A stretch of DNA of 47,318 nt from an uncultured Oscillochloris sp. (GTDB taxonomy: Bacteria > Chloroflexota > Chloroflexia > Chloroflexales > Chloroflexaceae). Location of the stretch: positions 1 through 47,318 of the forward strand of contig CAIXLU010000207.1 of the NCBI GenBank assembly GCA_903920315.1, in the 5' to 3' direction. The translations under genes and the position numbers were made by a program. The notes beneath the pieces are model-generated. The model searched no databases. It had not been told where the DNA came from and saw only the letters and a list, made by a program, of their open reading frames with translations. The stretch's first letter is position 1. Each line of letters opens with the position of its first letter. Below, piece by piece: positions 251 through 34,695 of the stretch.

Positions 251-3200
251 AGACGACGATTCCGACTCCCAATATCGAGCCACTGCCGCGCGGCTGCACC
301 AAAGTTACCCCTCCGGGTATGCCCGAGCCGGCCTGCTGCCTGAGCGGCTTCGTCTTTATGGACGGCCAGGCCATCGCCGGGGCCGAGGTGCAGGTGCAGA
401 GTCCGCGCGGCGATCAGGTCACGCTGATCACGCAGGTTCACAGCGGGGTTGAGCCGCGCCCCTACTATCAGGCCAGTCTAGACGAATCCCCGCTGGCGAT
501 CCATGCCGGTGAGATCATCACCGTCACCGCACGCTATAGCAGCCACGAGCGCAGCCTGACCTACAAGACTCTGCCCGGCAGCCAGCAGGTGGATGTGGTG
601 CTGTCCCGCAACCAGGCCGACGACTATATCGTCGATCAGCAGATCTGGGGCCAGGCCGAGACAGGGAAGTTGAATGAGTCCAGGGGTATGGCCATCGACA
701 GCAGCGGGAATGTCTACGTTGTCGACTCCCAGAACGCGCGCGTGCAGGTCTTTGATGCCAAGTACCAAGTTCTACTTTCGTGGGGGACGCTCGGCAACCT
801 GCCGGGAGAGTTTTCTTATCCTCTGGGGATTGCGATTGACGCCAGCGACAATATCTACGTTACCGACACCCGTAATCATCGCATCCAGAAGTTTACCAGA
901 CAAGGAATGTGGCTCACAACCTGGGGCGGGCTAGGGAGTGCGAATGGTCAGTTAAACTACCCCATGGGCATTGCGATTGATCTGTATGGCAATGTGTATG
1001 TGGTGGACACCTCCAACAACCGCATCCAGAAGTTTGATGGGGATGGCACATGGCTAAAGAGTTGGGGCACAGGTGGCAGCAACCAAAGCCAATTTCTTGC
1101 ACCCAGAGGCGTTGCCGTTGACACCAGCGGCAACGTGTATGTCACCGATGCAGGAAATAATCGTGTCCAGAAATTCAGTAGCGAGGGTACGTGGCTGGCG
1201 AGCTGGATCATACCTCCCGACAGTGGCAGCGTTCTGCTTGGAGATCCCTATGCCATTGCCGTCGGTGCCGATGGCGCGATCTACGTCTCTGATATCCGTT
1301 TCCATCGAGTCGTAAAGCTTAGCCCCGCTGGCACGGTGCTGACAACCTGGGGTGGCAATGGTTCCAGCGTGCAGTTTCTCGACCCGCAAGGGGTGATGGT
1401 TGACTCGGGTGGTGATGTTTATGTCTCAGAATCATACGGTAACCACATCCGAAAATTCAGCAGCAGCGGTGTTGTGTTAGCAGACTGGGGCACGACCGGG
1501 CAGGGCAATGGACAGTTTTTATGGCCCAAGGGGCTTGTTGTTGGTCCCGATGGCACGATTTATATTATGGACACCCACCATCATCGGATCGAGATACTGA
1601 GCGCCACTGGCGAGTGGCTTGCAAACTGGGGTGCTGCCGGGGCCGCCATTGGCAATTTTAATCATCCCCACCGAATTGTCCTTGCTGGCATAGGTACTTT
1701 CTATGTCGCCGATACAAACAACCATCGCATCCAGAAGCTCGATAGTAATGGGAACCCGCTTGCAAGCTGGGGGAGTAACGGCACGGGCAATGGGCAATTC
1801 TCCTTCCCCGTCGGCGTGGCGGCTGATCAGGTCAACAATCTTTTCTACGTTGCAGACACCTATAACCACCGCATCCAAAAGTTTACGAGTGCCGGGGTGT
1901 GGCTGTCCAGTTGGGGTAGCCTCGGCAGTGGGCCGGGCCAGTTCAACTACCCCTGGAGCGTTGCGGTTGACCACAACAGCAATGTCTATGTCGTCGATAA
2001 GGATAACCACCGCATCCAGAAGTTCGACCGCAACGGGACGTTACTGATAACCTGGGGCGGTGGCGGTTCTGCACGCGGACTATTCTCTAGCCCGACCGAT
2101 GTAACCATTGATAGCAGCGACAATGTCTACGTCACCGACTCGGGCAATCACCGCATCCAGAAGTTTACGAGCGCCGGGGTCTGGCTGTCCAGTTGGGGCG
2201 TTTCCGGTAGCGCCCTTGGTCAGTTCAACACACCCTGGGGAGTCACAACAAATCAGGTCGGCAAGGTCTACGTTGCGGATACGGTGAATGACCGCATTCA
2301 AATCTTCCGCCCGATGACCTACACCGACCCAATCGCGACGATCCAGCATCTCTCGGGGGTGACGCTTGATCCCGGCGATACGCTAGAGATACAGGGCTTG
2401 GGACAGGACAGTGATGAGACGCCGCAGATCAGCGCCTATGAGTGGACATCCAGCATTGATGGCGTGATCAGCACATCCGCCACACTCAGTCGCACCGCCG
2501 AAAGTCTGAGTCCCGGCGTCCACCAGATCAGCCTGCGCGTGCAAGATAGCGAGGGCCTGTGGTCTGAGCCGACCAGCGAGTTTGTGACGGTCAACGCCCC
2601 CGCACAGGTGCATTGGGGCATGCTGCTCTATCTGGATGGCGATTACGGACAGGGTAGTAATCTGCTCAATAACTATAATACGGTGATCAACGAGATGCGC
2701 AGCCACATGAGCAACCGCTTGGTGGAGATTGCAGTGCAGATCGACGGCCCAAAAAATAATGACACACGCCGTATCGTGATCCGCGCCAACCCCAGCGGGG
2801 GCCTCCCCCTAGTTGAGGACAAATCTTACCCTGAGCAAACGATGGACGACCCAGCAACCCTGGCGGATTTCATCCGCTGGGGCCAGACCAACATCGTCGT
2901 GCCACACTACTACTTGGCAGTTGCCAACCACGGCCAGGGACTGCAAGGTATTGCCTGGGACAAAACCAGCGACCCGAACGGCGGTGCCTATCTCACGATC
3001 CAAGAACTGGGACAGGCTCTGAACACACCGGGTCTTAAACCGATAGACATCCTGCACCTGGACGCCTGCTCGATGAATTTGTTGGAGGTTGCCTATGAGG
3101 TACGCGATCGGGTATCGATCATGATTGCCTCACAGTACCTGTCCTGGAGCTACTTTGCCTACAACGAGTACAAGGATCTGGTGAGCGAGACCACCACTCC

Positions 3201-3894
3201 GCAGGATCTGGCGTTGGGCATTACCAGAACGTACGCCGAGTTTGCCAAAGATGATTATCACCCCTTCACGATTGCGGCCCTGAATACCCAGCGGGTCGAA
3301 CCGATGTTCGCCGCTGTCGACCGGCTGGCGGCAGAGTTGAATGCACTGATCGAGAATGGCCAACTGACCACGCAGAAGCTGGCGGAGATCCGCCAAAGCA
3401 GCCAGACCTTCGAGAGCAACGGTGACTATCGCAATACCAACACCGATGTCTATGTAGACCTGCTCGACTGGGCGGACAACGTGCAAAAGGAGGTTCCTGC
3501 GGTTGAGTCCTGGGCGAATGCGCTGATCAACGAGCTAAAACTGACCTCGCCCTATGGTCTGATCCTCGATAATCGCTTCCGTAGCGGTACTTATCGGATC
3601 ACAAATAAATCCACGGTCTATGTTGATCTGACCGGGACTCACGGCGTGTCGATCTACTACCCGCTGGCGACGAACCCGCTGGCCTTCGAGATCTACGCGG
3701 GCCAGCGCAGCGGCGTGGCGTCCCTTCAAGGGGCGGCGACGGCTGGGACACAACAATTTGAGTTCGCCATCAGTTCACGCTGGAGCAGTTTCCTAGAGAA
3801 AACTGTGCCGACCGGACTGCCGGAGCCGCTGCCAGGGCCACAGACTCCGCTTCAGGATATTCCCTCTGTATTCTTACCGCTGATCAGACGCTAG
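1..3894 (+). CDS. Secreted NHL-repeat / clostripain (peptidase C11) protein, 5' partial
   Basis: The reading frame is open from the first base, so the gene starts upstream of the window and the ATG at 319 is probably internal. The first 80 codons are a Thr/Pro/Ser/Asn linker. Next comes a carboxypeptidase-regulatory-like stretch (about nt 320-620), then twelve NHL repeats (nt 650-2310; recurrent pattern N-x-Y-V-x-D-x-x-N-H-R-I-Q-K-F), enough for two six-bladed propellers. A PKD-like domain (nt 2340-2600) precedes a C11 protease domain with the catalytic His in A-N-H-G (codon 2929) and Cys in L-D-A-C-S (codon 3067). The protein ends after a Pro-rich linker with V-F-L-P-L-I-R-R. From family knowledge, C11 enzymes are caspase-fold cysteine proteases cutting after Arg or Lys. 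Surface or extracellular location is inferred from the linker and NHL array; the signal peptide is off-window. Product identity is confident, the substrate unknown. Confidence 0.88.
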   Translation, partial: TPTSTSTSTNTSTPTNTPTSTSTSTNTSTPTNTPTSTKIPTNTPTNTPTSTSTPTRTSTPTNTPTSTPTRTSPPTNSPVVPPTETTIPTPNIEPLPRGCTKVTPPGMPEPACCLSGFVFMDGQAIAGAEVQVQSPRGDQVTLITQVHSGVEPRPYYQASLDESPLAIHAGEIITVTARYSSHERSLTYKTLPGSQQVDVVLSRNQADDYIVDQQIWGQAETGKLNESRGMAIDSSGNVYVVDSQNARVQVFDAKYQVLLSWGTLGNLPGEFSYPLGIAIDASDNIYVTDTRNHRIQKFTRQGMWLTTWGGLGSANGQLNYPMGIAIDLYGNVYVVDTSNNRIQKFDGDGTWLKSWGTGGSNQSQFLAPRGVAVDTSGNVYVTDAGNNRVQKFSSEGTWLASWIIPPDSGSVLLGDPYAIAVGADGAIYVSDIRFHRVVKLSPAGTVLTTWGGNGSSVQFLDPQGVMVDSGGDVYVSESYGNHIRKFSSSGVVLADWGTTGQGNGQFLWPKGLVVGPDGTIYIMDTHHHRIEILSATGEWLANWGAAGAAIGNFNHPHRIVLAGIGTFYVADTNNHRIQKLDSNGNPLASWGSNGTGNGQFSFPVGVAADQVNNLFYVADTYNHRIQKFTSAGVWLSSWGSLGSGPGQFNYPWSVAVDHNSNVYVVDKDNHRIQKFDRNGTLLITWGGGGSARGLFSSPTDVTIDSSDNVYVTDSGNHRIQKFTSAGVWLSSWGVSGSALGQFNTPWGVTTNQVGKVYVADTVNDRIQIFRPMTYTDPIATIQHLSGVTLDPGDTLEIQGLGQDSDETPQISAYEWTSSIDGVISTSATLSRTAESLSPGVHQISLRVQDSEGLWSEPTSEFVTVNAPAQVHWGMLLYLDGDYGQGSNLLNNYNTVINEMRSHMSNRLVEIAVQIDGPKNNDTRRIVIRANPSGGLPLVEDKSYPEQTMDDPATLADFIRWGQTNIVVPHYYLAVANHGQGLQGIAWDKTSDPNGGAYLTIQELGQALNTPGLKPIDILHLDACSMNLLEVAYEVRDRVSIMIASQYLSWSYFAYNEYKDLVSETTTPQDLALGITRTYAEFAKDDYHPFTIAALNTQRVEPMFAAVDRLAAELNALIENGQLTTQKLAEIRQSSQTFESNGDYRNTNTDVYVDLLDWADNVQKEVPAVESWANALINELKLTSPYGLILDNRFRSGTYRITNKSTVYVDLTGTHGVSIYYPLATNPLAFEIYAGQRSGVASLQGAATAGTQQFEFAISSRWSSFLEKTVPTGLPEPLPGPQTPLQDIPSVFLPLIRR

Positions 3895-5033: not shown

Positions 5034-6359
5034 TTATCCGGTGAGCCGGTCAGCGGGAAGCGGATGGATACGCCCAAGCCCCGTGACCTGCGCCAGAAGC
5101 CGACGCAATAAACCCGGCTCTGGTTTTTCCGGAAGGAGTTTAATCAATTCCTCGGCATAGGAAAGCCCTCGGTAGTGCGCCTTGAGATCCAGCACGCTAC
5201 GGTTCGGATCCGTATCCCGGCGATCCCGCATGAGACGACGACTGAGGTTCACCATGAAGAAGGCGAGGTTCATGGCATTCGTGACGGCGGTTTCTTTAAC
5301 GACCATGAAGTCATCCAAGCCCCAGTATTGCTTGGCATCGCGGAACACGAATTCGATCGGGAACCGCACGTGGTAGTCGTCACGAAGGACATCCCAGGCC
5401 AACGTATGATCCGTACTGAAGAGGTAGACATGGGCCTGCTTGCCCGTCGTCAGATGCCGCTTAACGATGACGACCACGTTCAGCGGTTGGTCAAACGTCT
5501 CATGTCGGGCCTCAATCTGATACATCCGCGTCTCAACACCATCCTCGACCGTCGTTTGTTTCAGGAAGCGCTCCGGGATGGCGGTCGGGTCGATCCGGTC
5601 GCCGTAGATTCGACGCGGGCCACGTCCGGCGTAGGGGCCATCATAGGGATAATACAGGGCGGAATCGTTCCGCACTTTGGAGATCAGGTGCAAACCGAGC
5701 CGACGGGCCATCAGCGCGGCATTCTGATTGCCAAAATGTCCATCAAGCACCAGATAGGTCACGGTGACGTACGGACGGATGCGGGCCAAGAGGCCCTGAA
5801 TCATCGTACTGATGCGGGTGTGTTCGGCGTTCAACGGCGCATCGGCTTTGGCCTGCGTGCTGCTCCCCTTCGGACGCCCAGGCTTCCGCTTGGCGGGAGC
5901 CGGACGTGGGGTGGGTGCCGTGACCGGCTCCCGCACCACCTGCTCAAGCGCAACGGGGAACGCCTGCCGGTCGCGCCGACTGACCAGGGCGAGCGCGAAC
6001 AGCGCGACCCCCGGCACGGGTTTCCCAGCGATGCTGGAGAAGAAACGATCCACCCCATACGTCTCCGTCCCCGCTTTGGTCGTGACACATTCATCGCCGA
6101 TCAGCAGCACGTCCTCACCCGGGGTGAGCAAATGGGTACATACGAAGCACCAGAGGATCGCCGCCCACGGCAAGGTCGTGTGAAAGAAGCGCTGAATGGT
6201 GCGATAGCTGCCACCGTCACCTGTCCAACGGGAAAGGCCCAACATGGTGATTCGTCCCGTCATCGCGAGCATCGCCAACACAATTCGGCTCAATTGACGT
6301 ACCGTGGTCATCGTCACCGCAGGATGGAGGCAGAGCACGAGTGATAGAATAGCGTCCAT
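5034..6359 (-). CDS. DDE transposase, IS4 superfamily
   Basis: 441 residues, intact. The first 60 residues contain a conserved hydrophobic region with M-T-G-R and S-Y-R-T-I-Q-R-F, usual in these transposases. Acidic catalytic positions are visible in L-I-G-D-E-C near residue 88 and V-L-D-G-H-F-G-N near residue 205. A C-terminal F-R-D-A-K-Q-Y-W-G-L motif stands where IS4 enzymes have Y-R...E...K. A basic A-T-hook-like insert (K-R-K-P-G-R-P-K-G) lies near residue 160. The gene fills the element, its 3' end running to within one base of the left inverted repeat. Its ATG lies in the stem of a long hairpin (6357-6419). The exact IS subgroup is not certain. Confidence 0.88.
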   Translation of the reverse strand: MDAILSLVLCLHPAVTMTTVRQLSRIVLAMLAMTGRITMLGLSRWTGDGGSYRTIQRFFHTTLPWAAILWCFVCTHLLTPGEDVLLIGDECVTTKAGTETYGVDRFFSSIAGKPVPGVALFALALVSRRDRQAFPVALEQVVREPVTAPTPRPAPAKRKPGRPKGSSTQAKADAPLNAEHTRISTMIQGLLARIRPYVTVTYLVLDGHFGNQNAALMARRLGLHLISKVRNDSALYYPYDGPYAGRGPRRIYGDRIDPTAIPERFLKQTTVEDGVETRMYQIEARHETFDQPLNVVVIVKRHLTTGKQAHVYLFSTDHTLAWDVLRDDYHVRFPIEFVFRDAKQYWGLDDFMVVKETAVTNAMNLAFFMVNLSRRLMRDRRDTDPNRSVLDLKAHYRGLSYAEELIKLLPEKPEPGLLRRLLAQVTGLGRIHPLPADRLTG

Positions 6360-7847: not shown

Positions 7848-9377
7848 TTAGCTATAGGACGAGAAGTCTAAGCTAAGCCCGTAGCGTAGAATCCGCAGCC
7901 CCTCGATCTTCATCGCCTGGGGGTATAGAGCCTTGTAGATGTTACAGCGTGGCGATTTGACATCGTAGCGCCTGGTGGCCCGGAATGTGTCGAGCGGGCA
8001 ACCCCCAGCACACCAGTATTTCCATTCGCAGCTCTTACATCCCTCTTTTTCTTCAACAGAGAGATTCTGTAAACTTGTCTGATCGGCCCGTACTAATGCG
8101 AGGGGGTCTTGAGCCGCTACCGTTGTGATCGGCTGACGGATCTGCATCTGGCATTTTGCAACACGCCCTTGATGGTCAAAGACCATATAGCTATCGCCGA
8201 CCCCGCAGGTTTTTAGATGTGGTCTCGCAAGATTCGCCCGGTCAATCAATGAACTGAGCAAACTACGGCGGGGGACGACACGCTCGATCACTGCGTACGC
8301 CGCTAGCATCCCGGCGATAATCGTCTGTTCTTCTATCTGTAGATCGTGAAAAGACGCCGATAGCTCATTCTCGCGGTAGAAATTGAGGCTGAATGGTAGG
8401 TTGCGTTCAAGAGCCCAGGCCACAACCTCCGGTAGATGCCCTGCGCTCTTCCCGGTCGCCGTGATCGAGATGTCGGGCACAAGGCCACTCTTGATAGCCA
8501 CATCAACGGCACGGGCCACATCGACGAAGGATCCGTGTCCGCCGGCGTAGCGTCGTTGTGCATCGTGGGTATAGCCGATGCCATCAACAGACACCATCAG
8601 GTGCAGGCCGAGGTCGCGTAGCGCCTGGGCTCTTTCGGGACTGAGCAGAGTGCCATTGCTGAGTACAACTCCGTCGATGGTAACACCTCGCGCCGCACCC
8701 TGCGCAAGTGCATACTGATGGAGGCACAATACGGTATCAAAGTGGAGCAGCGGCTCACCGCCAGCGTACTTCAGCTTCAGCACCGGGTAGCCGTGAGCTA
8801 CCGCTGAGCGCAGGGCCGCATCGATCGCCGCACGCCCTGTGGTGATCGACATATCGTGATGCAGGTGGGGCAGGTAGCAGTAGTCGCAGCGCAGATTGCA
8901 GCGGTCGGTCACGTGCATCCAGACGCTCAACGTCTGCGGTTGATGCATAAGGGTTGGCTGTTCTCCCGCACGATGGAGCAACCCCCGTACATGCATGGCG
9001 CGAACAGTTGGTTCTACCTGCTCGGTGCCATAGCGTTCGGAACAGCTTTGTAGGATCGCGAGAGTGCGCTCAGGCTGGGTGAAGGCAGTGTAGATGTTCG
9101 CCGCGTGCTCGTTAAGGATAACTGGCCGGTGAAATGGACCATACACGAGGCTGTGCCCATCATGGAGTAGTTGCTGCTGTGAGCCTAGCGATAGTGTGAG
9201 CTGATTGGGATGTGGCCATGTCGGTTGTGATCCGTCCGGCAACGATGATATGGAGGGGAGGCTGCATGCGCAATCCCCGCCGTCGCAATCACATTGTCCG
9301 GCTGGCTGAGGCGATACGTCGTCGCTATAGAGGATGACTGGAAGTGCAGCTTGCGGCTTTTCCATGAAGTTCGTCAT
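7848..9377 (-). CDS. Radical SAM/SPASM peptide maturase with N-terminal PqqD-like region
   Basis: 509 residues. A Cys-rich segment (Cys 29, 31, 36, 38) comes first, then a PqqD/RRE-like winged-helix region (about 55-140) of the type that binds RiPP leader peptides. The radical SAM core follows, with C-N-L-R-C-D-Y-C (Cys 160, 164, 167) and G-G-E-P-L-L. A SPASM domain with auxiliary Fe-S ligands (C-G-V-G..C-Q-M..C-K-S-C..C-A-G-G-C-P..C) closes the protein. Enzymes of this class install C-C, C-S or cyclophane links in ribosomal peptides. The final five residues are F-S-S-Y-S, fitting the F-x-S-x-x-COOH signature known from substrates of actinobacterial FxsB-type maturases. It is the third gene of the CHAT operon, overlapping the preceding stop by four bases (ATGA), so it is translationally coupled. 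No separate precursor peptide gene is seen. Enzyme class is firm; target is inference. Confidence 0.9.
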   Translation of the reverse strand: MTNFMEKPQAALPVILYSDDVSPQPAGQCDCDGGDCACSLPSISSLPDGSQPTWPHPNQLTLSLGSQQQLLHDGHSLVYGPFHRPVILNEHAANIYTAFTQPERTLAILQSCSERYGTEQVEPTVRAMHVRGLLHRAGEQPTLMHQPQTLSVWMHVTDRCNLRCDYCYLPHLHHDMSITTGRAAIDAALRSAVAHGYPVLKLKYAGGEPLLHFDTVLCLHQYALAQGAARGVTIDGVVLSNGTLLSPERAQALRDLGLHLMVSVDGIGYTHDAQRRYAGGHGSFVDVARAVDVAIKSGLVPDISITATGKSAGHLPEVVAWALERNLPFSLNFYRENELSASFHDLQIEEQTIIAGMLAAYAVIERVVPRRSLLSSLIDRANLARPHLKTCGVGDSYMVFDHQGRVAKCQMQIRQPITTVAAQDPLALVRADQTSLQNLSVEEKEGCKSCEWKYWCAGGCPLDTFRATRRYDVKSPRCNIYKALYPQAMKIEGLRILRYGLSLDFSSYS

Positions 9378-12300
9378 CCTTGTGCTTTAATCCGAAGCTT
9401 TGTTTGCTGTAGCTCGTTTTGGCACCAGAACACAAGGTCGTACCGATTGATTTGGGACCCTTTATACGTCTGTTCTTCCCATTTGATAAGCATCAGTTGG
9501 AGGTACTGCTCTGCCTCTGCTTGCGACAGTTGGCGCAGCTTCTGTGCAAGCTGGCGTAGCTCCTTCTCGACGGTGTAGGGGCCGAATCCACCGTGTTCAT
9601 TGATCAACGCGATGCCACTGGCATAGAGTTCAAATGCCTGTTGATATTCCCCGTGACGAAGGGCAAATTCAGCACGGATGCGGTGCATCCACCCATAGTA
9701 AAGCGGGAAGATCAACCCCCGTTGCTCGTAGATGTCCAAAAGACTGGCATATTCTGCCATATGGCGATCGTTATCGAGGTCGAGATCAAACTCGGCCTCG
9801 CCGAGCAGGCTATCCACATAGTAGCGATGATCGCCCAGTTCTTCGCTCAGATGAAACGCTATCTTGTTAAGCGCACGAGCGTCCTCACATCGGGTGGTAT
9901 CACTGCTCTCACGGCCCAAGCGCCAGAGTACGCTGGCTAACTGGTGGTAGATGCCTGGCTCGGCGCTCCTGATTTCATGTTCCTGGGCTAACTCAAGGCT
10001 GTGTCGTAGGAGTCGTTCGGCCAACTGGAGTCCTGTCAGACTCACCGCATCAGTGCGGTCAACCGCGTCAAACCACTCGGTCCAGCCAAGTTGGAAGTAC
10101 GCCTGGCAATGCATATCACTTCTATCAGTTGTGGGAAGCAGCGCAATTGCATGTTCGAGATGGCGGCGCGACTGCGCATAGTAGCCACGATCGCGGGTTA
10201 GGATGCCGAGTGTTGTCTCGCCGCGGGCACTCTCCGCCTCCTCGCCCATCTCGCACCAAATCGTGATCGCTTGGTTGATCATGGTCTCGGCGCGGTCATA
10301 GTCGCGATTCAGGCCGTAGAGATAGCCAAGGTTATTGTTCGTACTCGCGATCAGCCGCAGGTAGCGTCGCTGCTCAATGCCAGTCGATGCGCTTTGGGCC
10401 TCGGTGGCTAGCGTGCGCACATCTTCGTAATGCTTTTGGGCTAATTTCCGATAGCTCGGCTTCTCGTCCTCCTGGAGACGATAGCAGTAGCCAATCTGAT
10501 TGAGTACTGCAGCCCGATGGCCCTTTTGTTCAGGGGCAATCAGCTTCAGACATCGCTGCTGATAGTTTCTGGCCTTCGCGGGAAGGCCAAGGCGCAGATA
10601 CGCCGCGCCGAGCATGTTATAGATCGTCAAGCGGCGATCTTTGCTGCGGGAAAGGCCGTACAGCAACGACTCGAACTGCTTTGTACTGTCCTCAGCCTTG
10701 CCGGTATCGAGCAGAGCACGGGCGTAGCGAAACTGATATTCGTACTGCTGGTCGTTCGTGAACTGACTCTTGTAGGCATCGATGCTTTTGCAGAGCCGTA
10801 AGGTAAGGCTAAAGTGCTTCCCTCCGCGCACCTGATCCACGATCTCACTCCAAGTTGCAAATGCCTGCGTATCGTTCGACTCGAACATATGAAAAACCCA
10901 TGCCTCGGTGACAGCCTGACGGCGGTTACGCGTTGCACGGCGCTCGATAGTGAGCCGGAGCTGTCGCGCACGCAACGTATTGCGTTGGCTATCATCGGAT
11001 GATGGCTGCGCCTCTTGTGCGCTGATCTCACGATCTAGATTGCCGATCTGAACTGTGTAGTCCTTGATCTTCTCGTTCAATTGGCTATCCTGGTTACGAT
11101 AGAACTGCACTGCCCGCTGGTGTTCACGGCACCGCTGTGAGCCATCGGGATCAAAACCTGCCCAGAGATAGGTTCCGATCAGCCGCTTCATCTCATCGTG
11201 GAGTTCAATTTCTGTGCCACCGTAGCGCGAGACTTCGCGGATGAAGGCGTAGGTTCTCGCCTCGTCAAACAGTGCCTGTGCATCATCGGGTGAGGTTTGG
11301 AACAGAGCGGCGATTGCTTCGACGGAGAGCGGGGCAATCAGCGATAGACGGAGCACCATGCGATCCATGCGGTTGCGCAGCCGACGGATATGCTGCACCA
11401 GGTTGCTCTCAAATGAAGTCGCGGCGACCCTGAGTTGCGCTGGCGACATTGCCGCAAGTATCTGACGATCCGGCAGTGGGTCGAGCTGAATCTTGCGGAA
11501 GACATATTCGATCGCTAGGTCGAGCAAGATGGGCTTGCCTAGTGCAAGCATGGCGAGCGTGTCGGCCAGATCGTCAGATAGCTGAAGCGGCATTGTGCGC
11601 TGCTTCTCACTGAGGTACTGCTGACTAAAGTTGAGATCAAAGGGCTGTAGATTCAGGAAGATGATCTCAGTATCAGATTGTTTTTGGTGTTCAATTTGTG
11701 TCGCCAGACTCTCCATCATTGCGCCGTCTGGGCGCCCGGCAAAGACTACAACGGTGTTCTCGAACGCGCAGAGCATTTTGATGAGATCCTGATTCAGTAG
11801 ATCTTTTCCGGCGCGCTCCGTTGTATCAAAGCACAGTAGCAGTCGCTGATCGTGGGTGCGCTTATTGATCGCGCTGACAAGATCCCGATGCACCTGCTCA
11901 CGCTGCCGCTCTGTGGCATCGGTCTGCAAAAGCCGTGACTGTACGGTGAGTTGATGCAGATTCATCGCCAGTGAATCGGGTGCCGTACCCGCAGTGACAT
12001 CGGCTAACCGCTGCTCTAGGTTTCCTTCGATAACAAGATCGGGATCGGCGAAATCGATGACATCACTCAAGGTGTAGAGTGACGCAGCATGAACCCGAAT
12101 ATGGGCCGCAATCGCGTGTAGCTCTGAACTCCAACCAATCAAATCTGTGTGATGCCATCTCCACTGGCTATCACCGGATGCGACCAGACTTTCTTGCGTG
12201 ACAAGTTCGAGAGGGAGTGAGTAGTAGTGTTCGCCAGGGGTGGAATTTGTGATAGCCTGCTTGAGCGCTAACCGTACAAGGAGGCGTCCAGCTTCAACAG

Positions 12301-13213
12301 GATCAATCGCAGCTGTTGCTCGCCAGGGGCTATCATCCATGAGCATTAGTTTTTTGTCCGAGGGGCAGAGATCAAAGCTGTACACCTTGATGTCTGTGCG
12401 GTCTATATTGACCAGGGTTTGTACTACGCCACGAGCATACTCATCGAAAATGCACCAGACAGCCTTCGTGTCAGGGTACAGTTCTATGTGGGCGCGGATC
12501 TGCTCTGCAGCGCTCTCATGAGAGTGTTGGCTCATCTCACAGTAAACATCGATAACATTGACAAGGTTATAGTTGACCAGAAGGCGGCTCAGATCACCCC
12601 TGCGGCGCTGCTGAAGCAGGTTTTCGGGCGTCCAGACGACGGCGACGTTTCCGCGGTAGTTGATCTGTTTCAGCATTAATGTGCTAACCAACTGAAGGCC
12701 ATTGAGATCATCCTGAAAGACCTTAACGGTCTTACCTTCGATCGATTCGATATGTGTATCGAAGGTCAGCACCGGAATGTCCAAGTCAATTGCCCGACGG
12801 ATCTGAGCTTCCACTTCATCGTACGACCCCAGACTTACGATGATCGCATCAGGCTGTGTGTCAATCTGCTGGGCAAGCTGCTCAGCCATACGTATCGGGT
12901 CATACCGCGCGTCGGTAGACTCCAAGGTGACACCAAGTTCGTAGGCCATAGCCTTGACACCGCGATAAAACTCGTGTGACCACTCGGAGTCGGTGAACTC
13001 CTGTACCAGTGCGATGCGGTGGTTAGCGTAAAGATTGTCCGGCTCGAAGCGCCCCGATTTGATGCGATCACGCAACTCTTTAAGTAGCCTCGTTTTACCG
13101 ATGCCGCCGTCGCCGCTGATGAACAGGAATCGCGATGTGCCAAAATCTAGCAGCAGGCGGCGAATAGCCACTAGTTCGGTCTCTCGCCCAATAAATGTCA
13201 CAGGCGTAGGCAT
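9374..13213 (-). CDS. STAND NTPase with inserted periplasmic-binding-protein-like domain and C-terminal TPRs
   Basis: 1279 residues. It opens with F-I-G-R-E-x-E-L and a Walker A (G-D-G-G-I-G-K-T, about 34-41), as in AAA/STAND ATPases. From about 64 to 345 the NTPase fold is interrupted by a domain that reads as a type-I sugar-binding protein (RbsB/LacI style). Its marks are an opening R-I-A-L-V-Q-E-F-T-D, D-A-I-I-V, I-P-V-L-T-F-D-T, D-D-L-N-G, G-N-V-A-V-V-W and D-P-V-E-A-G-R. The NTPase resumes with V-I-D-F-A-D and reaches Walker B (L-L-L-C-F-D-T-T-E-R, about 458-467). A helical middle with coiled-coil character (about 700-790) leads to TPRs (about 830-1250). No signal peptide, so the binding domain is cytosolic. 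The gene starts 5 bp after the CHAT stop (AAGGGG ribosome binding site) and overlaps the radical SAM gene. Likely a ligand-gated sensor and scaffold (inference). Confidence 0.82.
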   Translation of the reverse strand: MPTPVTFIGRETELVAIRRLLLDFGTSRFLFISGDGGIGKTRLLKELRDRIKSGRFEPDNLYANHRIALVQEFTDSEWSHEFYRGVKAMAYELGVTLESTDARYDPIRMAEQLAQQIDTQPDAIIVSLGSYDEVEAQIRRAIDLDIPVLTFDTHIESIEGKTVKVFQDDLNGLQLVSTLMLKQINYRGNVAVVWTPENLLQQRRRGDLSRLLVNYNLVNVIDVYCEMSQHSHESAAEQIRAHIELYPDTKAVWCIFDEYARGVVQTLVNIDRTDIKVYSFDLCPSDKKLMLMDDSPWRATAAIDPVEAGRLLVRLALKQAITNSTPGEHYYSLPLELVTQESLVASGDSQWRWHHTDLIGWSSELHAIAAHIRVHAASLYTLSDVIDFADPDLVIEGNLEQRLADVTAGTAPDSLAMNLHQLTVQSRLLQTDATERQREQVHRDLVSAINKRTHDQRLLLCFDTTERAGKDLLNQDLIKMLCAFENTVVVFAGRPDGAMMESLATQIEHQKQSDTEIIFLNLQPFDLNFSQQYLSEKQRTMPLQLSDDLADTLAMLALGKPILLDLAIEYVFRKIQLDPLPDRQILAAMSPAQLRVAATSFESNLVQHIRRLRNRMDRMVLRLSLIAPLSVEAIAALFQTSPDDAQALFDEARTYAFIREVSRYGGTEIELHDEMKRLIGTYLWAGFDPDGSQRCREHQRAVQFYRNQDSQLNEKIKDYTVQIGNLDREISAQEAQPSSDDSQRNTLRARQLRLTIERRATRNRRQAVTEAWVFHMFESNDTQAFATWSEIVDQVRGGKHFSLTLRLCKSIDAYKSQFTNDQQYEYQFRYARALLDTGKAEDSTKQFESLLYGLSRSKDRRLTIYNMLGAAYLRLGLPAKARNYQQRCLKLIAPEQKGHRAAVLNQIGYCYRLQEDEKPSYRKLAQKHYEDVRTLATEAQSASTGIEQRRYLRLIASTNNNLGYLYGLNRDYDRAETMINQAITIWCEMGEEAESARGETTLGILTRDRGYYAQSRRHLEHAIALLPTTDRSDMHCQAYFQLGWTEWFDAVDRTDAVSLTGLQLAERLLRHSLELAQEHEIRSAEPGIYHQLASVLWRLGRESSDTTRCEDARALNKIAFHLSEELGDHRYYVDSLLGEAEFDLDLDNDRHMAEYASLLDIYEQRGLIFPLYYGWMHRIRAEFALRHGEYQQAFELYASGIALINEHGGFGPYTVEKELRQLAQKLRQLSQAEAEQYLQLMLIKWEEQTYKGSQINRYDLVFWCQNELQQTKLRIKAQG

Positions 13214-13218
13214 CAGGA

Positions 13219-15858
13219 TTACCCCTTGTTCATCGTAGCCGGGTTATAGTGATCACGCTCGGCGAGTAAGGCTTTGCGCAGCACCTTAATCGGTGTGTTG
13301 CCATACTCCTCAGCGCGGAAGAGATAGTTGAAGAGAAAAATGAACTCCCAGAAGCCATACTGCGGTGAACGCTCATCGCCCAATTTCTCATCGATGATCT
13401 GGATGAGATCACGGAAATTCAGCCACCTTGGACGAATTTCGTAGATAGCCTTGACGACCAGCGGGACTTCTGTATGCAGGTATGCGAGCATCGCTTCACT
13501 ACGGTCATCGGCTCGCTCCAAATGTGCAGTGGTCATAGCCTGAAGCCGCTGGAAGAGGTACTCGAGTGCCCACATGCTGGAACCAGTGCCTTCTCTGATC
13601 TGTTGGAGGCACATGTCGGCAGCGGACGAACAGAGGGTGCGGAAATGATCAGGGTGCTCATAGCGGAGCTTTAGCGTAACAAGCTGTCTGCCGATGCCAT
13701 CGGACAAATATGCCCCTCCCGTGAACAGGTATGATTGGGTCAGTTTATCAGCGAGTTGTTCACCGTCAGCGCATCCCTGGGGCTTATAGATGTCACAATG
13801 CTTCTGGAGGATGTCGTAATCAACGTAGCGAAAGACACAGATCGCCTCGACCACATGGTGCAGATTCGGTAGCTTCTCTTTGATTTCTCGCTCAAAGTCA
13901 TCGGCAGCAAAGCGAATTACCGTATCCCACAGGTGGTTGCCCTGCTCGGGCGTAAAGTAGCGATCCGGCAGAAGACCCTGCTTATCAAACTGCGTCAGTA
14001 ACTCGGCCATACACCCGGGGTGGCCGCCGGTTAGGTAGAGCACATGGGATGCTGCCTTGGCCACATCGGCTTTTTTTTGCTCCGGCAGGTACATCTGCGC
14101 GGTCTCTTTGACTGACTCGTAGGTGAATGGTGTAAGTACTATTGGCTCAGGGTTATTCGGCAGGCCGAGGGTCTCGATCGCACGCCCGGCCATGATCAAG
14201 AACACATGAGGTGGATCCTGCAAATTTTTCAGGTTATCCCAGCAATCTTTGATGAACGACCCAGTGAACACATCGGTCAAGTGCTTTGCAGGGATATCAT
14301 CAAAATCGACCAAGATGACAAGGCCAGGTAAATGTTTTTTCTCAATGGACATCTCTTTATAGCGTTTCTTCCAGCGGCTTATAAACAACTCGCCTGGAGC
14401 CATCCTTACGGGTGTATATTCCTCGCTTACGTCGGCCTGAAGTCCTAATTGAGTACTGAGCTTATCCACAATTTGATAGATGTTAGTATGTCGATCCACC
14501 TTGACCAGGGCACAGTCATAGTTCTTATCGAAAAAACGAGTAGACACTTCTTGGAGTAGTGCGCTTTTGCCGAAACCGGACGGTGCGCTAACATAAACTG
14601 GGCGCTCGATCCTCAGATCCGCCAGTTCCATGATTTTCTGAATTTCCTCTTTACGGTTGGCAAAGTGGATAGCTGGTTGTGATGTTGTTCTATGAGCCGA
14701 TGAGGTTGCTTCTCCAGCAGGCGGAGGCGAAGATGGTGACATATTAGGCATCTGCTGGCTCCCTGGAAGATGATTTGTTTGGGCAGACAGTGCTGGTAGT
14801 TCTTGCGCATCCTCTGTCCAGAGCACCCCCTGAGTGAGGCTGGTATAGAGTACGGGCATCCACCAATCGGGGTAATTCTGCACGGCGTGCCGTGCCCCGT
14901 TGACGGCGCGGTCAATGGCACCATCGCGCAGGAGTTCGCGGAAGAAGATGGGTACGAAGCGCTGGTTAGTAGCGATGCTGAACGAGCCCTGCATGGCTAG
15001 CACGGATGGCACACCGGCCTGAGCAAGCAGTGGGCCGAGGGAGGACAGCACATCGCTGTAGCCGTCCCCCGCACCCTCACAAGAGCTTAGGACGACTAGG
15101 CGCGGTCGGCGCTCGTCAAGGCTCCGCAGTAGATCTACCAGCATTGTGCCGCTCTGGAGGGCGACCCGATTCTCGGCATCAACCAAGTAGAGCCAGGATT
15201 GCCCGTTGATTAGCTTGCCGTGGGCTACCAGATAGAGGATGTCGCAACCCTCACGTAGGTTGTCAGAGAGGCAATCCCAGGTGGCCAACTGACCTCCGGC
15301 GGTGCCGAGGGAGCGATGGCTAACGCACTCCAGGGCCGACACAACATGCGCAGTTTCTGCTTCAGCCGTGATCTCAGCCAGCCGGTAGCTTGCGACGTTT
15401 ATTGGGGCCGCCACCGCGATCAGCGCACGGATCTTGCCCTTTGGCCGTAGCTGTACCGGCCGGTAGCCATCGCCACTGAGGTAGCGCGAGAGTAACAGGT
15501 CTCCCTCACACGCTATGGGCCGATTACTGGAGGGAGATAGCAGAGTCTCCCAGTACAGCGATTGGAGATTCCGGGGAAGCAGCAACTGCACGCGGAGCTT
15601 CTGCCCAGACCCTGTTGTGGCAGCGTAGCACTCGCGGAAGGCAATCTCTGCCTCGCCGACAAAAATAGCAGTACGCAGCGTGGCACCATAGGCCACCGGG
15701 TCGGGCCACGAGGCAAGTAACTCTTTCGAGTCAAGTGTCATTGCGAAAGGGCCGTGGCGGACATTTCTCACAGAACCCGTTAGGCACAGTGTGAGTGCAA
15801 ACCCTTCGACGGAGGGGGTGATAGTCATCTCCAGGTTTGCATAGGGAGAAGATGTCAT
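13219..15858 (-). CDS. CHAT-domain protease fused to a P-loop NTPase
   Basis: 879 residues. A CHAT-associated N-terminal region (1-150) is followed by the caspase-like CHAT domain with catalytic His213 (Y-L-V-A-H-G) and Cys260 (L-S-S-C-E-G-A-G). A Ser/Pro-rich linker (about 355-395) leads to an ATPase with Walker A (S-G-F-G-K-S, near 427) and Walker B (V-I-L-V-D-F-D-D, near 512), then an alpha-helical C-terminus. CHAT enzymes are cytosolic cysteine proteases used in bacterial conflict and cell-death systems. This is the first gene of a three-gene operon; the next gene follows after 5 bp. The CHAT half is paralogous to the divergent CHAT-SIR2 gene at 18520. No strong Shine-Dalgarno precedes this ATG, so residue 11 (Met) is a possible alternative start. 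Both catalytic residues are present, so it is probably active. Confidence 0.9.
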   Translation of the reverse strand: MTSSPYANLEMTITPSVEGFALTLCLTGSVRNVRHGPFAMTLDSKELLASWPDPVAYGATLRTAIFVGEAEIAFRECYAATTGSGQKLRVQLLLPRNLQSLYWETLLSPSSNRPIACEGDLLLSRYLSGDGYRPVQLRPKGKIRALIAVAAPINVASYRLAEITAEAETAHVVSALECVSHRSLGTAGGQLATWDCLSDNLREGCDILYLVAHGKLINGQSWLYLVDAENRVALQSGTMLVDLLRSLDERRPRLVVLSSCEGAGDGYSDVLSSLGPLLAQAGVPSVLAMQGSFSIATNQRFVPIFFRELLRDGAIDRAVNGARHAVQNYPDWWMPVLYTSLTQGVLWTEDAQELPALSAQTNHLPGSQQMPNMSPSSPPPAGEATSSAHRTTSQPAIHFANRKEEIQKIMELADLRIERPVYVSAPSGFGKSALLQEVSTRFFDKNYDCALVKVDRHTNIYQIVDKLSTQLGLQADVSEEYTPVRMAPGELFISRWKKRYKEMSIEKKHLPGLVILVDFDDIPAKHLTDVFTGSFIKDCWDNLKNLQDPPHVFLIMAGRAIETLGLPNNPEPIVLTPFTYESVKETAQMYLPEQKKADVAKAASHVLYLTGGHPGCMAELLTQFDKQGLLPDRYFTPEQGNHLWDTVIRFAADDFEREIKEKLPNLHHVVEAICVFRYVDYDILQKHCDIYKPQGCADGEQLADKLTQSYLFTGGAYLSDGIGRQLVTLKLRYEHPDHFRTLCSSAADMCLQQIREGTGSSMWALEYLFQRLQAMTTAHLERADDRSEAMLAYLHTEVPLVVKAIYEIRPRWLNFRDLIQIIDEKLGDERSPQYGFWEFIFLFNYLFRAEEYGNTPIKVLRKALLAERDHYNPATMNKG

Positions 15859-16377: not shown

Positions 16378-18289
16378 GCAGTACCGCAAAAGGTACGCTG
16401 TGACGTAAACAGGGGTATCATCGGTTCGTACCCAAACAAAGGAGGAACCGATGAAGACCCCGAAGCGATTATATCCGAGTGCGCGCATCATCTTCCATCC
16501 CGAAGTATCCACCTGCCCGGTCTGCGGAGGGTCGCTGATGTTGGTCAACACGTTGCTCTGGGATAAAACGGTGCAGACGCTGGCGGGGGTTCAGGCGGTC
16601 GCTAGCCGTCCCGCGCGCTGTGCCGACCCGCAGTGTGCGGGTTCCACCATGCGGCTGCGCTCGCTCGCCGGGCAACAGGTGGCCGTGCCGTATACGACCT
16701 ATAGCTATGATGTGGTCGTGCGGATTGGCTGGCACCGTCAGACGCGCTGTGCCACCTACGCCGAGATCCATGCCGACCTGACCCCGCAGATCCAAATCGC
16801 GGAGTCGCAGGTGCGCCACCTCTATCAGCATGTCTACCTCCCGTTGCTGGCCTGTCACGAACGGCAGCACCGGGAACGCCTGACGCAGGCGGTCGAACGC
16901 CATGGCGGGCTGGTGATCGCCCTCGACGGCCTCGCCCCCGAAGGCGGCGAACCCCAGTTGTGGTGCATCCGGGAACTGCTCACCGGCGTGGTGTTGCGCT
17001 GTGGCTGGCTGAGCCGCCAGGATCACGCGGCGTTTGAGGGCTTCCTGCAGCCGTTGCGCGATCTTAGCTGGCCGATTCGGGTGATCGTCAGCGACAAGCA
17101 GCGTGGGCTGGTGCCGGCCATCGCGACCGTGCTGCCGAGCGTCCCGCACCAGTTTTGCCAGAGCCACTACCTGCGCAATCTGGCCGACCCGCTGGCCGAG
17201 GCGGATTCGGCGCTGACCGTCACCCTGCGCCAGGCCGTCCGACTCTCCCTCGGGCCACTGCTGCTGCACGACCAACCGCCCGAACCCACCCATCCCGGCG
17301 TCTTGACCGTGACCGGGCTGCTCGCACCATCGCCCCTCGTGCCGGCAGCGATCACCACCCCACCGGAACACCTGGCATCGGACGTGGTGACGACCACCCC
17401 TCCGCTGAGCACCCCTGCCCCTGAACTCCCCACGCCAGCGGTGTGCCCGGTCGCCGAACCGGCAGCGGTTCCTCCTGTCGGAAGCGCCGACCCAGATGCC
17501 CAGGTCGCCGCTACCATTGTGACCCAGGTGCTTCGCCGCACGCGCTACCTGCTGACCATCAAGGGCCGTCCGCCGCTGCGCCTAGCCGGAATGGAGCTCG
17601 TCGCCGGGCGGGAGGAACTCATCACCCGGGGCCAGCGCTGGCTGACCCATCGGGAGAACCCACAACTCGCCCACCTCGTGCGTGGGCTTCAGGACGCCGT
17701 GAACCAGGTTGCGCCCACCGCCGCCGTGATCCAGACGGGGGCAACCTGGATGGCGCAGATCCGCGCGATCCTGGCGCCCGCACCGGAAACGGCTCCCACG
17801 GCCGCGCAGGTGGCCCAGCAGTTGCAGGACTGCCTCGACCAGCTCGATCCGGACGTGACCACGCCGCTGTTGATCGACTTTCAGCAGCATTTGCGGAAGG
17901 TCAGTCGGAGCTATTGGCCAGGATTGTTTCATTGCTATGACCACCCGGACATCCCCCGCACCAACAATGACATGGAACGCCACTTCCGCACCACGCACAG
18001 TCGCATCCTACGTACCACGGGACAGAAAGGGCGCACCCGACGCATCCTGCATCGGAGCGATGCCTGGGAGCTCCTGGGCCATCCCCCGACCGAAGCGGCC
18101 AGCCTAGAGGCGCTGTGCCAGATTGCCCCAACGGATCTCGCAGATGAGCGGCTACGGCTACGGCAGCATCGGAATCGCTTTCTCCTCCATACGCGCTCAC
18201 CACGACAGACCACGGCGCAGATGGATCGACTGGAGCAGGAGTGGTTGGCCCTGCCGCCAACCGCTACAGCGTGACTTTTGCGGTATTGC
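16378..18289 (+). mobile_element. Insertion sequence with 8-bp target duplication (MULE/IS256-like)
   Basis: The ends are gcagtaccgcaaaag (from 16378) and cttttgcggtattgc (to 18289), inverted with one mismatch over the terminal 15 bases and with similarity continuing inward (acgctgt). The element is flanked by the direct repeat ctaattat (16370-16377 and 18290-18297), an 8-bp target duplication. At 1912 bp with one full-length transposase, it appears recent and possibly active. It separates the two divergent CHAT operons. Confidence 0.88.
16451..18274 (+). CDS. MULE-type DDE transposase
   Basis: 607 residues, with a strong ribosome binding site (aaaggagg) before the ATG. A zinc-binding-like N-terminus (C-P-V-C near residue 22, a second Cys pair near 56-60) precedes the catalytic core. 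Acidic motifs are V-I-A-L-D-G (about 157) and V-I-V-S-D-K-Q-R-G (about 218). C-Q-S-H-Y-L-R-N-L (about 236) is the CxxH block of MULE/IS256 relatives, and N-N-D-M-E-R-H-F-R (about 505) carries the Glu. A Pro/Thr-rich insert (about 275-340) separates the second Asp from the Glu. The 8-bp target duplication agrees with the IS256 group. Exact IS family not resolved. Confidence 0.85.
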   Translation: MKTPKRLYPSARIIFHPEVSTCPVCGGSLMLVNTLLWDKTVQTLAGVQAVASRPARCADPQCAGSTMRLRSLAGQQVAVPYTTYSYDVVVRIGWHRQTRCATYAEIHADLTPQIQIAESQVRHLYQHVYLPLLACHERQHRERLTQAVERHGGLVIALDGLAPEGGEPQLWCIRELLTGVVLRCGWLSRQDHAAFEGFLQPLRDLSWPIRVIVSDKQRGLVPAIATVLPSVPHQFCQSHYLRNLADPLAEADSALTVTLRQAVRLSLGPLLLHDQPPEPTHPGVLTVTGLLAPSPLVPAAITTPPEHLASDVVTTTPPLSTPAPELPTPAVCPVAEPAAVPPVGSADPDAQVAATIVTQVLRRTRYLLTIKGRPPLRLAGMELVAGREELITRGQRWLTHRENPQLAHLVRGLQDAVNQVAPTAAVIQTGATWMAQIRAILAPAPETAPTAAQVAQQLQDCLDQLDPDVTTPLLIDFQQHLRKVSRSYWPGLFHCYDHPDIPRTNNDMERHFRTTHSRILRTTGQKGRTRRILHRSDAWELLGHPPTEAASLEALCQIAPTDLADERLRLRQHRNRFLLHTRSPRQTTAQMDRLEQEWLALPPTATA

Positions 18290-18475: not shown

Positions 18476-18519
18476 TACGGGTGACACCTCTGGTGCGAGA
18501 GAGTGACGAGGGGAACACG

Positions 18520-20649
18520 GTGAACGACCCCGCCGACCTAGAACTCAGCCTGCACCGCCGCGATGCCGTACGCTACACGGTTGATCTCGTCTTCAGCCAG
18601 CCCGGCAGCGAGGCCGATGTGCGCCCGCTTGGTCAACAGTCCGTCTGCGTCATCTTTGAGATGGATCGGCTCCAGGAGATGGCCCTCGATCCGGTAGGCT
18701 ACGGGCGGGCGCTGACGGAGATGCTCCTGGACGATCCGGCCCTTGCCTCCGCATTCGCCGAGTGTCGCACTGCGGCGCAGAGAGACCGGATATCACTGCG
18801 CCTGCGTCTGGCAATTGCCCCCGACGCCCCCGAGTTGCACGCCATCCGCTGGGAGACTCTGCGCGACCCGAAGACCAACCAGCCCCTCGCCCTCAGCGAG
18901 CAAATCCTGCTTACCCGCGCCCTGGGCAGCGCCGACTGGCAGCCGGTGACGCTGCGCGCCAAGGGCGATCTGCGTGCCCTCGTGGTGATCTCCGCACCCG
19001 CTGGACTGGATCGCTTCAATCTGGCGCATATTGATGCGGACGTCGAGAGACATGTGGCGATCACCGGCATGAGCAAGATTCCCACCACCGTGCTGGCCGC
19101 ACCAGGCCAGGCCAGTCTGCGAACACTCATCAGCCGTCTGCGCGATGGCTACGACATCCTGTATCTGGTGGCCCACGGGACGATGGTGGATGGCGAACCC
19201 CAGATCTTTCTCGATGATGGGCAGGGCCGGGTGACCTGCATCCGGGGTGAGGATGTCGTGGCGCACATCGCGGATCTGCCCATTCGCCCGCGCCTCGTGC
19301 TGCTATCCAGTTGTCAGAGCGCCGGTGACGGGAGCCACAATGCCCTGGCATCCCTCGGCCCACGATTGGCGACCGCCGGTATTCCTGCGGTGATCGCCAT
19401 GCAGGGACCGCTCAGCATCGCGACCAACACCACCTTCGCACCGGCTTTTTTTCAGGAATTGCACCGCGACGGGCGAATTGACCGCGCCCTCGCCGCTGCT
19501 CGTCAGACGATTGCCGACCAGCCTGACTGGTGGGTACCGGCCCTCTTCACACGCCTGCGCAGCGGGCGGATCTGGTACGAGCCGGGCTTCGAGGACGATG
19601 ATTTCAAGAAGTGGCCGACCCTTGTTAGTAGTATCGCCCAGGGTCGCTGCACGCCCATTCTTGGTCCGGGTCTGCTCGACCATCTGATTGGCTCAACCCG
19701 CGATGTGGCCCGTAGCCTCGCCGCGCAGCATCATTTCCCCCTGGCTCCCTTCGCCCGCGATGACCTGCCCCAGGTGGCGCAGTACCTCGCGGTGAACGCG
19801 GATGTCCATTTCATGCGCGACGAACTGGAGGCGGCTTTGCGCGCCAACCTAGCCAGTCGCGTCGGTGCCGCAGGTCTGCCTCCGGGGACGCTTGATGATC
19901 AGCTTGCCGCTGTGGGTGCCGAGTGGCGGGCGCACCAGCCTCACGATATGTACCGCATTCTCGCCCGTCTGCCCCTGCCGATCTTCCTCTGCGCCACACC
20001 CGACCGCTTGCTCACCGACGCCCTGCACGAGGCGGGGAAGGCTCCCCAACTCCAGATCTGCCCCTGGAATCGTCACGGCGAACTGCGGCAGGCGCGGCTC
20101 GATCCGCCCACGCCGGAGCGTCCGCTGGTCTATCATCTCTTCGGACGCCTCAACGACCCTGAGTCGCTGGTGCTGACTGAGGACGACTACTTCCGCTACC
20201 TGATCGGCGTCACCCGCAACCAGGATCTCTTGCCCGAGGAGGTTGCCAGTGCCCTGGTGGACACCGCACTGCTCTTCCTGGGCTTTCGCCTGGATGATTG
20301 GAACTTCCGGGTCCTCTTCCAGAGCGTGATGAATCTAGCGGGGTCGGAACTCCGCCGGCGCTACACCCACGTCGCGGTGCAGATTGACCCGCAGGAGGGC
20401 ACGTCGCTCAACCCGCAGGCTGCCCGCGAGTATCTCAAGACCTACTTCGGCGCGGCCAGTGCGCTCCAGTACCAGACCAACATCAGCATCTACTGGGGCA
20501 GCGCCGAGGATTTTCTGCGCGAGCTATTTCCCCGTGTGGCAAAGAAACTGGGTGTGCCGCTGCCATCCGCGCAGACTGGTGGCGGGATCGTTGAGACCAC
20601 AGAGGACGTTTTTATTGGCGGCGTCCGCATCCCGAAGGCACCACGATGA
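18520..20649 (+). CDS. CHAT protease - SIR2-like fusion
   Basis: 709 residues from the GTG at 18520, chosen because gagggg lies seven bases before it; an upstream in-frame GTG at 18481 has no such site. The CHAT-associated N-terminus (1-150) is followed by CHAT with His219 (Y-L-V-A-H-G) and Cys265 (L-S-S-C-Q-S-A-G-D-G). The C-terminal half (about 377-690) is a SIR2-like domain: T-P-I-L-G-P-G-L-L at its start, C-A-T-P-D-R-L-L, V-Y-H-L-F-G, and L-F-L-G-F-R-L-D-D-W. SIR2-like domains in defence proteins hydrolyse NAD; CHAT cleaves proteins. It overlaps the next gene by four bases (ATGA), so the pair is co-translated. The N-terminal half is paralogous to the divergent gene ending at 13219. NADase activity is inferred from the family. 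Confidence 0.88.
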   Translation: MNDPADLELSLHRRDAVRYTVDLVFSQPGSEADVRPLGQQSVCVIFEMDRLQEMALDPVGYGRALTEMLLDDPALASAFAECRTAAQRDRISLRLRLAIAPDAPELHAIRWETLRDPKTNQPLALSEQILLTRALGSADWQPVTLRAKGDLRALVVISAPAGLDRFNLAHIDADVERHVAITGMSKIPTTVLAAPGQASLRTLISRLRDGYDILYLVAHGTMVDGEPQIFLDDGQGRVTCIRGEDVVAHIADLPIRPRLVLLSSCQSAGDGSHNALASLGPRLATAGIPAVIAMQGPLSIATNTTFAPAFFQELHRDGRIDRALAAARQTIADQPDWWVPALFTRLRSGRIWYEPGFEDDDFKKWPTLVSSIAQGRCTPILGPGLLDHLIGSTRDVARSLAAQHHFPLAPFARDDLPQVAQYLAVNADVHFMRDELEAALRANLASRVGAAGLPPGTLDDQLAAVGAEWRAHQPHDMYRILARLPLPIFLCATPDRLLTDALHEAGKAPQLQICPWNRHGELRQARLDPPTPERPLVYHLFGRLNDPESLVLTEDDYFRYLIGVTRNQDLLPEEVASALVDTALLFLGFRLDDWNFRVLFQSVMNLAGSELRRRYTHVAVQIDPQEGTSLNPQAAREYLKTYFGAASALQYQTNISIYWGSAEDFLRELFPRVAKKLGVPLPSAQTGGGIVETTEDVFIGGVRIPKAPR

Positions 20650-34645: not shown

Positions 34646-34695
34646 AGCGCCATTATAGAACACGCGCCGTGTCCACGGAGCCGGGTTCGCTCTGT

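Follow-up and report, generated by a model that had tools for sequence, protein, structure and literature searches.

In this study, we describe a gene family of Chloroflexota and some cyanobacteria, not described before, whose conserved core consists of an NTPase, a STAND-TPR protein and a radical SAM/SPASM enzyme, and to which a CHAT protease and a periplasmic-binding-protein (PBP) domain are added as exchangeable modules. The family is more general than the preliminary description of this DNA had supposed, and its most interesting part, which that description had passed over, is a putatively self-modifying cysteine tail at the N-terminus of the radical SAM enzyme. We lean towards reading the system as a modular NLR-like conflict or stress-response operon, in which the radical SAM tail, modified by its own enzyme, would act through the STAND complex. 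A literature search, which covered open-licence papers only and is therefore weak evidence of absence, found no paper describing the family.

Operon organization

The window, meaning the whole 47,318-nucleotide stretch of DNA that was analysed, belongs to a Chloroflexota genome of 5.5 Mb in 716 contigs. Three ORFs follow one another on its minus strand: one of 879 aa at 15858-13219, one of 1279 aa at 13213-9374 and one of 509 aa at 9377-7848. Between the first two lie 5 bp (13214-13218), and the last two share the four bases ATGA (9374-9377). This coupling had been reported in the preliminary description with every coordinate exact, and the domains named there (CHAT-NTPase, STAND-TPR with a periplasmic-binding-like domain, radical SAM/SPASM) are borne out by matches to domain models. 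The features discussed below, with their basis in brackets, are:

13219..15858, minus strand: gene 1, CHAT (caspase-like) plus NTPase, putative effector/adaptor subunit (domain matches)
9374..13213, minus strand: gene 2, STAND NTPase that contains a periplasmic-binding-type domain and has C-terminal TPRs (domain matches, model)
13091..13114, minus strand: Walker A GDGGIGKT, residues 34-41 of gene 2 (sequence)
12197..13018, minus strand: inserted type-I periplasmic-binding-protein domain, residues 66-339 of gene 2 (AF2 model, Foldseek)
11816..11836, minus strand: Walker B LCFDTTE, residues 460-466 of gene 2 (alignment)
9983..10627, minus strand: TPR region, about residues 863-1077 of gene 2 (domain matches)
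7848..9377, minus strand: gene 3, radical SAM/SPASM enzyme preceded in the same chain by a Cys tail and an RRE-like domain (domain matches, model)
9264..9293, minus strand: substrate-like acid-Cys motif CDCDGGDCAC, residues 29-38 of gene 3 (sequence; disordered in model)
8970..9200, minus strand: predicted RRE-like bbb-aaa domain, residues 60-136 of gene 3 (model secondary structure)
8448..8930, minus strand: radical SAM core of gene 3, CNLRCDYC at residues 160-167 (domain match, alignment)
7944..8207, minus strand: SPASM domain of gene 3, seven Cys C391-C478, auxiliary Fe-S clusters (alignment)
L175:2494-5708, minus strand: NTPase of locus L175 whose N-terminus holds three ASDCxC repeats in tandem (sequence)

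Transposase genes flank the operon on both sides, at 16451-18274 and 5034-6359 (IS256/IS66-like ORF; DDE_5). The window also encodes another caspase-clan protein, a C11 clostripain-family peptidase fused to NHL beta-propeller repeats (319-3894, plus strand), and two nearby MalT-like STAND-LuxR regulators in opposite orientation (31835-34663, minus strand; 36224-38983, plus strand). An Rfam search of the window gave no match.

Conservation and linkage of the core

The radical SAM enzyme was searched for in 400 Chloroflexota genomes and, by an alignment-based search, in named genomes; once near-copies had been removed, 58 non-redundant family members were retained. ORFs were taken from a simple longest-ORF script, so that start codons are approximate. 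Members from named genomes are mostly Chloroflexota, Dictyobacter, Roseiflexus and Anaerolineales among them, and the family is also found in Nostoc, Pseudanabaenales and an actinomycetote MAG. A plasmid search gave no match at E<=1e-40, and no relative was found in viral contigs.

A STAND-TPR homologue lies within two genes of the radical SAM gene in 53 of the 58 loci; among the other five, two radical SAM genes are at contig ends and one (L061) has its STAND gene about 2 kb away. Conversely, a STAND profile built partly from the radical SAM loci themselves returned 34 matches at E<=1e-60, 30 of them adjoining a radical SAM gene of the family, and one of the remaining four has such a gene elsewhere in its genome. 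Pairwise distances of the two proteins are correlated (r=0.69; permutation maximum 0.14), and in five loci the radical SAM gene is inverted yet still adjacent to STAND. A co-oriented upstream gene is present in 47 of the 53 linked loci, usually another NTPase in those inspected. Because the pair recurs in this way, the operon core is not a product of chance. There is only a negligible probability that three unrelated genes came to lie side by side by local accident: the exact combination of CHAT, PBP domain and radical SAM was indeed seen in the window alone, but linkage in both directions refutes this explanation for the core. The preliminary description had named rare adjacency as what would reduce the operon to such an accident, and adjacency is the rule. 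Its three-gene set holds as a conserved operon type, but not in its particulars, as CHAT and the PBP insertion each occur in only three of the 58 loci and their pairing remains lineage-specific.

Exchangeable effectors

Gene 1 contains a CHAT domain at about residues 50-350 (PF12770, E 3e-17), whose sequence has the His-Cys dyad (His213, Cys260) expected of a CHAT peptidase, followed from residue 399 by an NTPase of ATPase_2/AAA_16 type. The NTPase part is common to L051_2, L052_6, L054_1, L091_6, L094_2 and others, but the CHAT part is not. Within the window's clade, the effector slot or an adjoining gene carries FGE in L051, TIR in L054, CHAT in L056, trypsin in L091 (with EAD9) and L097, and bDLD1 in L094, while L052 and L093 have an EAD-like N-terminal region that is also found on a small neighbouring gene; EADs are accordingly common to a standalone gene and the NTPase in L052, L093 and L091. 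Outside this clade, we found TIR in L096 and L100, CHAT with EAD7 in L067 and caspase C14 in L099, and SIR2 or SIR2-TIR genes occur in one clade of seven. On a radical SAM tree built by a quick method, CHAT, TIR, trypsin and EAD require two or three independent placements each. Swapping of effectors on a conserved switch, as these sequences show, is typical of NLR-like conflict systems, and it supports the signalling or defence role that had been proposed for the operon at the outset.

The closest relative of the window's CHAT among the CHAT domains of the same genome is 48% identical to it, and the CHAT of the divergent neighbouring operon is 42-43% identical; in view of this resemblance, the domain may have been recruited locally. 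The genome (G000) encodes 24 CHAT domains, including some at C191 and, away from the FxSxx TPR-type gene mentioned below, on C319. The divergent operon itself (18481-24653, plus strand), in which a CHAT-SIR2_2 fusion (722 aa) overlaps an nSTAND1-WD40 gene (1335 aa), is likely another conflict system.

No effector domain was recognised in 38 of the 58 loci. Several of these carry extra NTPases with a C-terminal OmpR-type winged helix, and for this reason the output may be transcriptional there; one or two further NTPases of this kind are found in many related operons, such as those of the L053, L057, L062, L081 and L087 loci, which suggests a transcriptional branch. A signalling or transcription system as a whole (MalT-like inducer sensing, development or a nutrient response), as opposed to defence or cell death, appears rather unlikely to us. 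It would account for the winged helices of these related operons and for an inserted PBP domain closest to sugar-binding proteins, but not for the TIR, trypsin, death-like/EAD and SIR2 domains carried by relatives in the window's clade, nor for the CHAT-SIR2 and nSTAND1-WD40 operon that the window's operon adjoins.

A binding-protein domain within the STAND NTPase

In gene 2, domain matches place an AAA_16 P-loop at residues 6-54 and Peripla_BP_4 at 67-320 (E 8e-25), and the protein has the elements of a STAND NTPase, namely GDGGIGKT, LCFDTTE, a conserved GxP (GKPILL) and TPRs. In the AF2 model (767 residues, pLDDT 90.9), a P-loop strand at 28-33 and a helix at 40-52 come first, followed by a complete two-lobed binding-protein fold (66-339) and by the remaining NTPase, with Walker B at 457-463. 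The model thereby predicts that the PBP domain interrupts the STAND NTPase, with the Walker-A helix on one side of it and the remainder of the fold on the other. By alignment, the NTPases of L052, L091 and L093 are continuous across the insertion point; besides the window, only two loci, L051 and L094, have the insertion. The top Foldseek match to the inserted domain is 4RY8, a 5-methylthioribose binding protein (TM 0.89), and the acidic residues of the segments that match it are kept (FDTH at 151, FDEYARG at 256, SFDLC at 279). A link of the PBP domain to SAM salvage is speculation.

The radical SAM enzyme and its N-terminal tail

Gene 3 matches Radical_SAM (E 4e-13) and has a complete seven-Cys SPASM pattern (C391-x12-G-x4-C409; C447-x2-C450-x5-C456-x3-C460; C478). 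This pattern and CxxxCxxC are invariant in 31 aligned members, as is characteristic of radical SAM/SPASM peptide maturases. The model matches the fold of CteB (5why/5wgg) over about 450-460 columns with a TM of 0.7, and residues 60-136 are predicted to adopt the bbb-aaa fold of an RRE. On the N-terminal side of this predicted domain lies the tail with CDCDGGDCAC, which is modelled as disordered (pLDDT 41-57). Three shorter relatives (L094, L097 and L112) lack the RRE and keep the motif.

Across the family the tail is hypervariable except for its acid-Cys motifs, mostly DCAC and present in one to four copies, with acidic residues at -1 and -3 before the cysteine. In 52 tails, 53 copies of DCxC were counted, where shuffling gives a mean of 0.85, and [DE]C is found in 54 of the 58 tails against a shuffled mean of 22; these shuffles ignore the relatedness of the radical SAM proteins. 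CX3[DE], present in 28 tails, is within the chance range (shuffled mean 21, maximum 30). Near the N-terminus is a short hydrophobic stretch (e.g. PVILY, PIILT), which includes a short strand at 15-17 in the model and, on both sequence and model, resembles a leader strand. Single-Cys variants exist in L079 (NDCRLP), L077 (NDCM) and L095 (EDCK), and the L076 enzyme has no motif. L066 keeps the tail, its STAND gene being elsewhere in the same genome. The distantly related L108, which lacks both a nearby STAND gene and the motif, forms a natural contrast. L064 had seemed to lack the motif because its radical SAM frame (L064:8076-9434, minus strand, in a complete genome) is shifted in the tail, such that the leader-like stretch and PETDCACP fall in different frames.

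A modified peptide had initially been proposed as messenger or effector, and short conserved ORFs beside homologous loci were the place to look for it. No conserved precursor was found there, neither a separate one with a DCxC motif nor one ending in FxSxx, the number of FxSxx-ending short ORFs (52) being close to the chance expectation of about 46. It is this absence of a separate precursor, together with a conserved acid-Cys motif ahead of an RRE-like domain, that leads us to propose the tail as the enzyme's own substrate, in place of a messenger peptide with its own gene. Sequence and model together suggest that leader, core, RRE and maturase reside in one chain. It is improbable that the enzyme is a conventional RiPP maturase whose precursor is encoded far away and unlinked, the fused tail serving as a decoy or leader mimic. 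The RRE-like domain and CteB-like fold would suit this reading, but among the short ORFs of the loci no acid-Cys or FxSxx type is conserved, and the motif is retained in the RRE-less relatives.

Alternatively, the Cys tail might be a metal or Fe-S ligand, a redox sensor or an autoinhibitory plug, with the STAND protein, the NTPase or the effector as true substrate. In its favour, CxC motifs are capable of metal binding, the tail is anchored close to the radical SAM active site and the loci offer no separate peptide. Yet we think this alternative doubtful, since several variants have a single cysteine, the tail is disordered and hypervariable with one to four motif copies, and the seven SPASM cysteines are already complete. 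Locus L175, the most informative one, also speaks against it: here STAND is followed by an NTPase with N-terminal ASDCDC-ASDCDC-ASDCAC and then by a radical SAM/SPASM enzyme of a different family. In this one locus, the repeats on the NTPase would suit a movable substrate, able to sit on more than one protein, better than they would suit a ligand of a cofactor. The second radical SAM/SPASM family was found in two of the 400 genomes (L175, L171), in both cases adjoining a STAND gene of the window's family.

Proposed mechanism

Sequences or models show the gene linkage, the domain content and the exchange of effectors, as well as the inserted PBP domain and the acid-Cys tail with its predicted RRE-like domain; the mechanism that we build on them is conditional. 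The STAND-TPR protein would be an NTP-driven switch, and the companion NTPase would bear or recruit the exchangeable effector, in the window the CHAT protease. The radical SAM/SPASM enzyme would modify cysteines of its own RRE-tethered N-terminal tail, and the resulting self-made modified peptide would work within the STAND complex by licensing it, by holding it back or by being released as a signal. In the window's lineage, the sugar-binding-type domain in the STAND NTPase would act as ligand sensor, adding a ligand input where it is present. What we infer is the tail's part as substrate of the enzyme, gating of the NTPase by the bound ligand, an output through CHAT, and a role in defence or regulated cell death; the order from ligand to STAND to CHAT is plausible. 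More tentatively, the family could represent a new, self-substrate class of radical SAM enzymes, whose modified Cys tail serves an NLR-like switch as its internal signal. In the window's lineage, this switch would also be gated by the PBP domain, perhaps in response to 5-methylthioribose or another sugar of SAM salvage.

If the tail is the substrate, the family would present the unusual case of a radical-SAM RiPP-type core that forms one chain with its maturase and is wired into an immune-like STAND switch; we know of no earlier example. It would also provide a concrete route to the role of modified peptides in bacterial conflict systems, a question that is open for FxSxx. A PBP domain inside a STAND NTPase offers, in turn, a ready opportunity to ask whether a ligand can gate an NLR-like protein directly.

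Comparison with known systems

The FxSxx-COOH peptide-processing systems (FxsA/FxsB/FxsC/FxsT) are the nearest described arrangement. They comprise a radical SAM/SPASM enzyme, a TPR AP-ATPase, a TIR effector, and a separate small precursor and metallopeptidase alongside vWA-MoxR-VMAP components (PMC7159879 section 24). In both systems, a radical SAM/SPASM maturase has an AP-ATPase/STAND-TPR protein and a TIR-type effector as neighbours, and a conflict-linked modified peptide is predicted; they differ in that the putative core is here fused to the maturase, and in that the operons scanned here showed no precursor, metallopeptidase or vWA-MoxR-VMAP component. The comparison drawn in the preliminary description stands as a good analogy but not as membership: gene 3 scores 51-56 bits against the FxsB family (TIGR04269, cut-off 370 bits), gene 2 is not among the matches to the FxSxx TPR model (NF040586, cut-off 300), and no short precursor ending in FxSxx is conserved in the loci. 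Two other genes of the same genome (on C319 and C191) exceed the NF040586 cut-off.

With SCIFF/CteB, PapB and related SPASM thioether maturases, gene 3 shares the combination of RRE, radical SAM and SPASM, its best solved relative being 5why/5wgg. PapB (NF047865) is its best NCBIfam match, although at 119.8 bits it stays far below the cut-off of 340, and the Cys-X3-Asp/Glu pattern of such ranthipeptide maturases is not enriched in the tails. PapB requires the cysteine to come first and the aspartate second, and leaves the opposite order unprocessed (PMC9413430). In the tail the acid precedes the cysteine, the reverse of Cys-X3-Asp, and the putative substrate is in cis, so that the PapB thioether analogy is not directly transferable. 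Gene 3 does not reach the viperin (pVip) model either (49 bits against a cut-off of 180).

A core peptide fused C-terminally to its own modifying enzyme is known from the borosin methyltransferases (OphMA). The putative fusion in our family is similar, but borosins belong to a different enzyme class, have no STAND partner and carry the core at the C-terminus. MalT, in turn, is a STAND protein switched by a small sugar-like ligand that is sensed through C-terminal repeats; a small sugar-like ligand is likewise proposed here, whereas the PBP domain is inserted in the NTPase and MalT has no radical SAM enzyme. With the STAND/NLR-like conflict systems (PMC7159879, PMC8195603), the family has in common a STAND switch, exchangeable CHAT/caspase, TIR, trypsin and SIR2 domains, and shared EADs, and it is set apart from them by a radical SAM enzyme as conserved core partner and by a PBP domain inside the NTPase.
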